The notes below the pieces were generated by a model that was not told where the DNA came from, did no database searches, and worked only from the letters and a program-made list of their open reading frames with translations. A program made the translations under genes and the position numbers. Positions 50,091 through 54,685 of a stretch of 64,000 nucleotides of DNA are shown here, one piece after another. How positions within the stretch are numbered: the first letter of the stretch is position 1; every line of letters begins with the position of its first letter. The stretch comes from Pseudanabaena sp. PCC 7367 (lineage in GTDB: Bacteria; Cyanobacteriota; Cyanobacteriia; Pseudanabaenales; Pseudanabaenaceae), in NCBI RefSeq assembly GCF_000317065.1, contig NC_019701.1:3358001-3422000 (forward strand). The letters run 5' to 3'.

Positions 50091-50432
50091 TCAGCTCCAG
50101 CCATTATCAGCCTGTTGCAACACATAGGTGGCAATGTCTTCCATTTGTTGATCGCTCAGCTTTCGGAACGCTGGCATTGCGTTTTTGCCGTGACCAATTT
50201 GATAGACAATCTTTTCGATGGAATACATGCCATAGGTTTCCAGGGCATCCTTTTGCAAGGTTTTGTTTTTGATCACCAGGTTGCGCCCTTTGGCATGACA
50301 ACTGGCACAATTAACGCTGAATAGCTTCGCCCCATTAGCCGCATCAGCCGCATAGCTCGGCTGCACAAATACGATCGAACAGGTGAATAAACATATCAGC
50401 ACACCTAATGCGCTTAATAGTAACTTCCTCAA
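50091..50432 (-). CDS. petJ: Cytochrome c6
   Basis: The start is TTG at 50432, with a strong GGAGG six bases upstream. The 113-residue precursor has a signal peptide cut after A28 ([11 protein letters not shown]). The mature protein begins [21 protein letters not shown], with heme motif C42-A-S-C45-H46 and axial Met M86 (NAMPAF). It carries electrons from cytochrome b6f to photosystem I in the lumen as the copper-free alternative to plastocyanin. It is divergent from a BlaI-type repressor and M56 protease pair that matches the PetR/PetP copper switch, so copper repression is strongly suggested. Confidence 0.95.
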
Positions 50433-50737
50433 TTCAAGCCTCCTGATTTCTCTCTGCTAGATAGTGTGGTACAGCCGATCGCCCTATGTCAAAAGACCAG
50501 CCGTCAGACTTTGCAACTTGTTGATGGTTCCGTAGCTGCTGTTTGGTAGTGGCTTAGGAATGCTTAAGAACGCTTAAAAACTAAGCAAGAAAAGGCAGGC
50601 AAGAAAGGACAAATAAGAAAAGAGCAGATTAATTCGAGCAGCGCTACAATATGTCAATATGTCAAAGTAGATTGCTATTGATATCACGGCACTAGATTTT
50701 TTTTTGATTGTTTCTTTTTTGAGTCAAACCATAATTC
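50433..50737. promoter_or_regulatory. petJ-petR divergent control region with three TATGTCAA sites
   Basis: TATGTCAA occurs at 50485-50492, about 55 bp upstream of petJ, and twice in tandem at 50650-50657 and 50658-50665, about 75 bp upstream of petR. On the petJ strand the first copy reads TTGACATA, so it also resembles a -35 element. The sharing of one 8-mer between both promoters is seen; binding by PetR is inferred. Confidence 0.5.
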
Positions 50738-51157
50738 ATGAGTCCCCTACCCGATCGCACTCCCAAAAAACTTAGCCTGGGCAGATTAGAAGCAGAAATT
50801 CTCGGCATAATTTGGGATCTGGGCTCCGCCACCGCAAAAGACATTCACGATCGGATCTTGAGCGATCCCGATCGGGAACTGGCCTATGCTTCGGTTTCCA
50901 CGGTGCTAAATCGCTTGGCTAATAAAGGCTGGCTGAGCATGAGCAAAAAAGGCAGGGCGATCCTGTGGCATCCTTTGGTGTCGCGTCAGGAAGCGCGATC
51001 GCTGCAAGCCTATGAACATCTCAATAATTTCTTGCAGGTGGGAAATGCGGATATTGTGGCGGCATTTGCCGATCAACTCGATCGCGCCAGCCTGGACAAG
51101 ATCGATGCGATCGCCCAGCGGCTACAACAGGCACGACAGGATCGGGAGGCAGAATAA
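50738..51157 (+). CDS. petR: BlaI/CopY-family repressor, PetR-like
   Basis: This 139-residue protein has the BlaI winged-helix domain at about residues 8-85 (LGRLEAEILGIIWDLGSATAKDIHD, then ASVSTVLNRLANKGWLS) and a short helical dimerisation tail. Its stop overlaps the start of the M56 protease gene by one base (TAATG), so the two are co-translated. In Synechocystis the PetR/PetP pair controls the plastocyanin/cytochrome c6 switch: PetR represses petJ and activates petE, and the protease PetP degrades PetR when copper is present or absent as appropriate. The direct neighbourhood of petJ supports orthology. A generic BlaI regulator is the alternative. Confidence 0.82.
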   Translation: MSPLPDRTPKKLSLGRLEAEILGIIWDLGSATAKDIHDRILSDPDRELAYASVSTVLNRLANKGWLSMSKKGRAILWHPLVSRQEARSLQAYEHLNNFLQVGNADIVAAFADQLDRASLDKIDAIAQRLQQARQDREAE

Positions 51158-52059
51158 TGCATTTAGTGATGATTTTGAGTGCGATCGCCTTTGCCTGGGG
51201 GCTGCGCCAAGCCACGCCGCTTTGGTTAGGCAGTAATCGCCAAATATCCAATCAAAATGTTACCCATGACTGGCATCAACGCTGGTGGCGATCGTTGTTT
51301 TTGCTCACCTTCCCGCCCTTGCTGGTGTTAACCACCTCCCTGGCGGTGCTTTGCATGGGGCATCATGGATTGATGGTGGGGCTGCCTGCGAGTAAATCCG
51401 GCTGTGCGATCGCGGTTGGCATTTGCATTTACCTGGTCTTGATCGGGTTGCAATTATTCATTTCGATCCGCAATTCAACCAGGCAGATTGCAACCTACAA
51501 CAAAATCGAGCTAGATGGTAAATCGGCCAGGGTCTTGGAAGTGCCAACCCTGTTTGCAGCGCAGGTGGGATTGTGGCAACCGGAATTAGTGATCAGTCGA
51601 GGCATGTTAACTGAGTTTACGCCCGATCGCCTCCAGGCAGTTTTATGCCACGAACAAGCCCATTACCACTACCACGATACGTTCTGGTTTTTCTGGTTGG
51701 GTTGGTTGCGACAGGCGACATTCTGGCTACCAAATACGGAAGCATTATGGCAGGAATTGCTGTTGTTGCGAGAGCTACGCGCCGATCGCTGGGCTGCCCA
51801 ACAGGTCGATCCGCTGCTTCTGGCAGAATCATTATTGATGACGGTGACCAGTGCGATCGCACCAGATAATTTTTCGGAATTAGATTATGGCGTTGGCCTG
51901 AATCAGTGGAAAGAAGGAGAACAGGGCGATCGATTAGCCGAACGGATCGATGCGTTGCTGGCTGAGGCTGAACCGATCCCTAGACCAAAGCCCTGGTATT
52001 TAACCTGGTTGATCGCGGTTTTGCTGCCGTTTCTTTCGTTGCCGCTGCATTTGAGCTAG
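51157..52059 (+). CDS. petP: M56 (BlaR1-type) membrane metalloprotease, PetP-like
   Basis: This 300-residue protein has four likely membrane segments (about 3-20, 45-68, 83-103 and 280-298). It has a cytoplasmic zinc-protease domain with HEQAH (165-169, in LCHEQAHYHYHD) and a downstream glutamate ligand in RELRADRWA (E206). It lacks the penicillin-binding sensor domain of BlaR1, as PetP does. It is translationally coupled to the repressor gene. The inferred role is to cleave PetR in response to copper, thereby setting petJ expression next door. Confidence 0.83.
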   Translation: MHLVMILSAIAFAWGLRQATPLWLGSNRQISNQNVTHDWHQRWWRSLFLLTFPPLLVLTTSLAVLCMGHHGLMVGLPASKSGCAIAVGICIYLVLIGLQLFISIRNSTRQIATYNKIELDGKSARVLEVPTLFAAQVGLWQPELVISRGMLTEFTPDRLQAVLCHEQAHYHYHDTFWFFWLGWLRQATFWLPNTEALWQELLLLRELRADRWAAQQVDPLLLAESLLMTVTSAIAPDNFSELDYGVGLNQWKEGEQGDRLAERIDALLAEAEPIPRPKPWYLTWLIAVLLPFLSLPLHLS

Positions 52060-52770: not shown

Positions 52771-52845
52771 GGCTTATTACTCCTGGGCTTGGGTTGGTTA
52801 GGTTTATTGTGCCCTTTTTCGTGGCGATCGTTGCGTTTTTTGTTG

Positions 52846-53178: not shown

Positions 53179-54685
53179 GTTTCAGTCCCCTTGCGGGGTA
53201 AAGGAGCGTTGCAATATCACCCAGGGATTTATACTGGCCGTGCGGAACGACGTTTCAGTCCCCTTGCGGGGTAAAGGAGCGTTGCAATCCCTGGACAAAG
53301 AGAATGATGCAGTAACAAGCTATATCAGGTTTCAGTCCCCTTGCGGGGTAAAGGAGCGTTGCAATCCTTTGATTATGGGCAGCTTGATGCAGAGACCAGG
53401 GTTTCAGTCCCCTTGCGGGGTAAAGGAGCGTTGCAATCAGGGGCGAAGGGCAGATTGCTCCAGGAGCTACGCGTTTCAGTCCCCTTGCGGGGTAAAGGAG
53501 CGTTGCAATTGTCGCATCAAGAAGCGAACTTCGCCAGGGTATGTGTTTCAGTCCCCTTGCGGGGTAAAGGAGCGTTGCAATCCCAGCGCACACCACTTTT
53601 GTTTGACCCGACACTAAGGGTTTCAGTCCCCTTGCGGGGTAAAGGAGCGTTGCAATCACAGACAACTTGTGGTGGGTTAAAACGATCGAGGCCACATTGT
53701 TTCAGTCCCCTTGCGGGGTAAAGGAGCGTTGCAATCCAACTATCAGAAATAAGTCTTTGCTTGTTTTGCCGTTTCAGTCCCCTTGCGGGGTAAAGGAGCG
53801 TTGCAATTCCAGAATTTGACGCGGAATTGGGGGAGGTGAATGTTTCAGTCCCCTTGCGGGGTAAAGGAGCGTTGCAATAAATGCCTGTAAGTCGCTTAAG
53901 GTAAAAGCCATATGTTTCAGTCCCCTTGCGGGGTAAAGGAGCGTTGCAATACGATTCGCAAGAGATCGCCCTAATGCGAGTTAAAGGTTTCAGTCCCCTT
54001 GCGGGGTAAAGGAGCGTTGCAATTCGCTGCCAATTCTTATCCTTATTGGCCTGGATTGTTTCAGTCCCCTTGCGGGGTAAAGGAGCGTTGCAATTTTGCC
54101 ACCGCCAGATTGGAGCCAAACAGCTTAATGTTTCAGTCCCCTTGCGGGGTAAAGGAGCGTTGCAATCCGATCGCCTTGCGCAACGCCTTAACTATGTTTT
54201 GCCTGTTTCAGTCCCCTTGCGGGGTAAAGGAGCGTTGCAATCGACTGATGCCTTACACAATAACTCAACCACACTGAGTTTCAGTCCCCTTGCGGGGTAA
54301 AGGAGCGTTGCAATAATGATCGAGGCATGATTAACTACCCTCCTTTGGTGTTTGTTTCAGTCCCCTTGCGGGGTAAAGGAGCGTTGCAATATCCAGGGCT
54401 GGGAGCGGTGCGGGTAGAGTTGTAAAAGTTTCAGTCCCCTTGCGGGGTAAAGGAGCGTTGCAATGTTACAAGCCAACTGCACGAACTGCACAAAATTATG
54501 TTTCAGTCCCCTTGCGGGGTAAAGGAGCGTTGCAATTAGAGGCATGTGGGGCAAGTTACAGCGGATGCCCTGGGTTTCAGTCCCCTTGCGGGGTAAAGGA
54601 GCGTTGCAATCCAGCCCATGCCTGCATACCTAGGACAATCAATGCATGGTTTCAGTCCCCTTGCGGGGTAAAGGAGCGTTGCAAT
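53179..54685 (-). CRISPR. CRISPR array, 21 repeats and 20 spacers
   Basis: Twenty-one 37-bp repeats, identical as far as I can see, begin GTTTCAGTCCCC and end GAGCGTTGCAAT on the plus strand. They start at 53179, 53252, 53329, 53401, 53473, 53545, 53620, 53699, 53771, 53842, 53914, 53987, 54058, 54130, 54205, 54278, 54354, 54428, 54500, 54574 and 54649. Spacers are 34-42 bp and all look different. The inner CCCCTTGCGGGG can form a short hairpin. On the minus strand the repeat ends GGGGACTGAAAC, the usual 3' end that gives the ACTGAAAC crRNA handle, so transcription is inferred to run leftwards from a leader right of 54685. No cas genes are in the window. Frames reading through the repeats (PARGLK, FQSPCGVKERC) are artefacts. 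Confidence 0.98.

Follow-up and report, generated by a model that had tools for sequence, protein, structure and literature searches.

The window, the whole 64-kb stretch of DNA that was analysed, belongs to a genome of two contigs (4.89 Mb) and carries petJ (encoding cytochrome c6) in divergent orientation to petR (encoding a regulator of the BlaI/MecI family), which overlaps by TAATG with petP (encoding a membrane metalloprotease of the M56/BlaR1 type) (Table 1). The start codon of petJ is TTG, with AGGAGG at 50439-50444, 6 nt upstream of it. The predicted structure of PetR matches both MecI and BlaI. PetP (300 aa) scores 26 bits against the Pfam M56 model, under the cut-off of 31, and the top solved structure for a profile built from its orthologues is BlaR1 (8exp); a domain search of the protein gave no penicillin-binding (beta-lactam) sensor domain. 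The sequence and the domain searches agree with the original prediction that petJ diverges from a BlaI-type petR coupled by TAATG to an M56-type petP without such a sensor, and a PetR/PetP pair next to petJ was rightly recognized there, as identities, coupling and domain content all fit.

Table 1. Genes and predicted regulatory features of the petJ-petR-petP locus (positions in the window).
Feature	Position	Strand	Basis
petJ, cytochrome c6	50091-50432	-	NCBIfam NF045930 (equivalog), 139.9 bits, cut-off 135; sequence
petR, BlaI/MecI-family regulator	50738-51157	+	Pfam PF03965 (Penicillinase_R), E 1.3e-28; predicted fold similar to MecI 1okr
petP, M56/BlaR1-type membrane metalloprotease without sensor domain	51157-52059	+	HExxH at 165-169, E206 invariant; pLDDT 90
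Predicted petJ -10 hexamer CACACT	50463-50468	-	18 nt from the -35 box; inferred for this copy
Predicted petJ -35 box TTGACA	50487-50492	-	With two further bases, TATGTCAA read on the other strand
Extended conserved element TGTCAAAAGACCAGCCGTCAGAC (predicted operator and -35 box)	50487-50509	+	Exact match to GTCAAAMGAC-N5-GTCANA at 50488-50508
Predicted PetR operator core GAC-N5-GTC	50495-50505	.	Palindrome conserved at petJ; recovered de novo upstream of petE in relatives
Tandem TATGTCAATATGTCAA before petR	50650-50665	+	Possible degenerate half-sites (TACA-ATA-TGTC, 50645-50655); not conserved

PetR shares 61-72% identity with its cyanobacterial orthologues, and in all 80 named orthologue loci petP follows petR, while petJ, whose conservation next to petRP was earlier reported to be moderate, is the divergent neighbour of petR in 13 of them. 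Like PetR/PetP of Synechocystis sp. PCC 6803 (slr0240/slr0241), which regulates petJ, petE and slr0601-slr0602, the pair combines a BlaI-type regulator with a coupled M56-type protease and has petJ as its predicted target, but here petJ lies divergently beside petR and petE has no predicted site. With staphylococcal BlaI/BlaR1 and MecI/MecR1 it has in common the repressor fold, the membrane metalloprotease domain and an operator that is an inverted repeat of broadly the same type; Synechocystis PetR, however, both activates and represses, and a beta-lactam system of the BlaI/BlaR1 kind was rejected for a protease of 300 aa that lacks the penicillin-binding sensor domain. The CopY/TcrY copper repressors share the BlaI-type winged helix and the response to copper, but this identity was also rejected: PetR has no cysteine, hence no C-terminal CxCx4CxC metal motif, and its score against the CopY family model is 47.5 bits (cut-off 121.95). 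Judged by its sequence, the locus represents an ordinary PetRP module, a copper switch of known kind beside its expected target petJ.

Elsewhere in the genome there is a second, weak match to Penicillinase_R (G000:C2:3850709-3850963; 24.9 bits, cut-off 22.6). Just downstream of the module lies a CRISPR array (53180-54685) with about 21 copies of GTTTCAGTCCCCTTGCGGGGTAAAGGAGCGTTGCAAT at a spacing of 71-79 bases, and a stray copy of the repeat is found near 52844.

The conserved element upstream of petJ

When the petJ-petR gaps of relatives were compared side by side, GTCAAAAGAC was found followed by 5 bases and GTCA. This word was also the only productive one in a k-mer search over all petR upstream regions, which otherwise returned GCGATCGC, resembling HIP1, and for the most part words confined to particular clades. 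The extended pattern GTCAAAMGAC-N5-GTCANA has its only exact match in the genome at this locus; with two mismatches it yields 9 matches compared with 27 for the reversed pattern, and we therefore propose no other target within it. The likely PetR site, GAC(A)-N3-(T)GTC, is located immediately upstream of the -35 box predicted for petJ.

Scanning the petJ-petR gap for consensus promoters gave nothing. Across 33 petJ promoters, the best position for a -10 box was 19 nt downstream of the final GAC in the element, and 27 other targets gave independently the same best position, in both cases above all 300 permutations, so that TTTTGAC, at one end of the element, is probably the -35 box. The palindromic core GAC-N5-GTC then probably lies at about -49 to -39, a usual position for an activator, and the last GAC could be a third PetR half-site besides being part of the -35 box. 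The conserved site makes petJ a well-supported predicted target of PetR. Autoregulation of petR by the same element found no independent support, as in the loci read an element on the petR side mostly also faces a divergent target gene.

Sites at petE and upstream of petR

When the upstream regions of 60 petE genes were screened without bias for spaced word pairs, GACA-N4-GTCA and GACA-N3-TGTC came out on top, and the palindrome GACA-N3-TGTC, allowing at most one mismatch, precedes petE in 35 of the 60 regions compared with 4.6 in shuffles. In relatives this site appears to overlap the -35 box or to sit between -35 and -10, a placement that is not statistically firm; a positional rule for petE was dropped since -10 placement did not rise above permutations, and that half of the geometry is hypothetical.

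The genome with the module does contain petE, 96 bp behind psbV (L002 772-1767; C2:3032965-3033960), in an arrangement that is common to the genomes of the same family, all of which lack the PetR-type palindrome. Control of both petJ and petE in Synechocystis would favour a switch that is complete here too, with petE under PetR via a diverged site or via the psbV promoter. We regard this as unlikely, as no match to GACA-N3-TGTC at one mismatch occurs in the 3.3 kb around psbV-petE and the palindrome is missing at petE in all seven genomes sampled from the family (this one and six others), as well as in most of one other family. Hence, of the features expected of a PetRP system, the locus has the PetR-orthologous winged-helix regulator, the adjacent HExxH protease without sensor and petJ with a conserved site, and the conserved site at petE is lacking within 3.3 kb. 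The predicted switch thus has only a petJ arm, and judging from the absence of a petE site it probably governs petJ alone in this genome. This departs from the Synechocystis scheme and counts against the explanation that we prefer, i.e. a PetRP switch acting on petJ via GAC-N5-GTC.

The original prediction had singled out the octamer TATGTCAA, present once before petJ and in tandem before petR, as the half-site of the PetR operator, and had taken the genes as one self-regulating module. The octamers are indeed present at 50485, 50650 and 50658, but as a signal they do not stand out: the window has 4 copies compared with 2.0 +/- 1.4 in shuffles (18 of 100 shuffles reach 4) and the genome has 170. 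In the same orientation the octamer precedes petR in none of the 80 named orthologue loci (its reverse complement does in one) and it is absent before petR from 16 loci of the same family. Upstream of petE in this genome, where the prediction had called for it, there is no copy, even with one mismatch. The copy before petJ is the complement of TTGACATA, i.e. the -35 box plus two bases on the petJ strand, and is accounted for as the rim of the larger conserved element, its first letters TAT not being conserved. Two observations favour the octamer: the tandem copies cover the likely -35 region of petR and are the single occurrence of the tandem form in the genome, and TACA-ATA-TGTC is one mismatch away from the petE-type palindrome. 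All in all, an octamer half-site that joins petJ and petR in a self-regulating module appears improbable, and we rejected TATGTCAA as operator as neither specific nor conserved before petR. The part of the module that stands is petJ as a predicted PetR target, and the control site is very probably the conserved GAC-N5-GTC beside the octamer; autoregulation through the tandem before petR, which lacks conservation, is a minor possibility.

Occurrence of the element and the predicted regulon

We scanned 290 genomes of the class for the extended element, and found it in 140 of them, compared with 21 for the reversed pattern. Where PetR was searched as well, the element was present in 41 of the 48 genomes with PetR and in none of the 51 genomes without (Fisher p 6e-21); when picocyanobacteria were left out it was present in none of the 15 PetR-negative genomes (Fisher p 1.4e-9), and since the genomes are related and shared descent is ignored, both p-values are too strong. 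The exact element is missing from 7 of the 48 PetR-positive genomes. In the family of the window, three genomes that have no PetR match also have no element. Elements linked to petJ (in 41 of 71 genomes) lie upstream of the gene in 44 of 44 cases and in a single orientation relative to it, and among 20 petJ promoters that lack an exact match, 17 have the element at the corresponding position with 1-3 mismatches.

Shuffles almost never give such a near-element, yet it precedes petJ in 2 of 20 PetR-negative genomes (L327 in G054 and L318 in G064, petJ and petE being divergent around the near-element in the latter), which may have a PetR gene that was missed or recently lost. These two cases, and an assignment of the element to PetR by sequence comparison, are what could be put forward for a different regulator that owns the element and travels with PetR while PetRP acts elsewhere, which is highly improbable given the tight co-occurrence of element and PetR, their joint loss inside the window's family, the presence of the element exactly at petJ and petE (known PetR targets), and the nature of GACA-N3-TGTC as a BlaI-type half-site palindrome that suits a protein of the BlaI fold.

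Away from petJ, the element recurs upstream of several gene families, oriented to them as it is to petJ. Some of the loci read were hand-chosen among elements not near petJ, so that the following counts reflect recurrence and not frequency: genes for DsbD_2 and Ferric_reduct membrane proteins (11 loci), TonB-dependent receptors (8 loci, and 5 in the family of the window), MbnP (8 loci), small proteins with GLTT repeats (8 loci), His-rich proteins (6 loci), PepSY_TM proteins (4 loci) and DUF2231 proteins (4 loci, in the family of the window). The MbnP and TonB receptor genes point to copper uptake, and the genes linked to the element (petJ and those for the TonB receptor, MbnP, DsbD_2/ferric-reductase and PepSY proteins) are predicted to form a copper-starvation regulon. 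The GLTT-repeat proteins (with GIxPMG repeats; L130-L134, L119, L128 and L145) may be the counterparts of Slr0602 in the PetR regulon of Synechocystis. In single cases the element precedes a COX1-family oxidase gene (L146) and a cydA-like gene (L160), possibly connected to copper-sparing changes of oxidases.

Copper response of PetP and the proposed switch

In Synechocystis, PetR activates petJ and represses petE when copper is lacking, and is lost through the protease PetP when copper is present (PMC7896320, PMC13421787). A commentary of 2021 called it unknown how binding of PetR yields these opposite outcomes and noted that the way in which PetP responds to copper still had to be elucidated (PMC7896320). 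In the literature searched, with the original PetRP paper outside that search, we found no report of a GAC-N5-GTC operator or of a wider PetR regulon.

Besides the catalytic residues, M67 and M73 are invariant in 81 PetP orthologues and M1, H2 and H298 are nearly so. Hydropathy and the structure model (pLDDT 90) place helices at 2-18, 35-67 and 80-112, followed by a soluble protease domain and helices at 279-297. The protease domain has to be cytosolic to reach PetR, so that residues 1-2, 67-79 and 298 would be on the other face of the membrane, and pairing between these non-cytosolic parts would be in keeping with the short strands that the model has near 72-77 and 298-299. The conserved Met and His residues hint that PetP has a copper site. 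As for the other partner, F110 of PetR is invariant and aligns with F102 of MecI, the residue beside the MecI cleavage site; PetR might possibly be cut at A109-F110.

We therefore propose that PetR binds the palindrome directly upstream of the petJ -35 box and, when bound, would help RNA polymerase at petJ. Copper would act on PetP from the side of the membrane that faces away from the cytosol, with M1/H2, M67, M73 and H298 as candidate ligands, and switch on the HExxH site, after which PetR would be cut. In its own genome the predicted switch would have the petJ arm only, and across cyanobacteria the same site would mark the copper-starvation regulon. We have good confidence in the reading of the locus as a PetRP switch that targets petJ via GAC-N5-GTC and responds to copper via PetP, without a petE arm in this genome and with a wider regulon elsewhere. 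The broader view is held with less assurance, though we lean slightly towards it: PetR would be a general copper-starvation regulator of cyanobacteria, with its palindrome upstream of the -35 box at activated promoters (of petJ and the genes for TonB receptors, MbnP, DsbD_2/ferric-reductase, PepSY and GLTT-repeat proteins) and over the -35 box or between -35 and -10 at petE, PetP would sense copper by the conserved Met/His set at the lumen or periplasm side, and some lineages, including this one, would have uncoupled petE.

If true, the different placement of GACA-N3-TGTC at petJ-type and petE promoters would account for how a single protein can both activate and repress. An operator with its promoter geometry, predicted copper-uptake targets and candidate ligands make the dual action of PetR and the copper response of PetP directly testable in common laboratory strains of cyanobacteria, and the value of the analysis lies in the corrected operator, the predicted copper-starvation regulon and the predicted copper site of PetP. 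The PetR regulon would then extend from the four proteins reported in Synechocystis (PMC7896320, PMC13421787) to copper acquisition in general.
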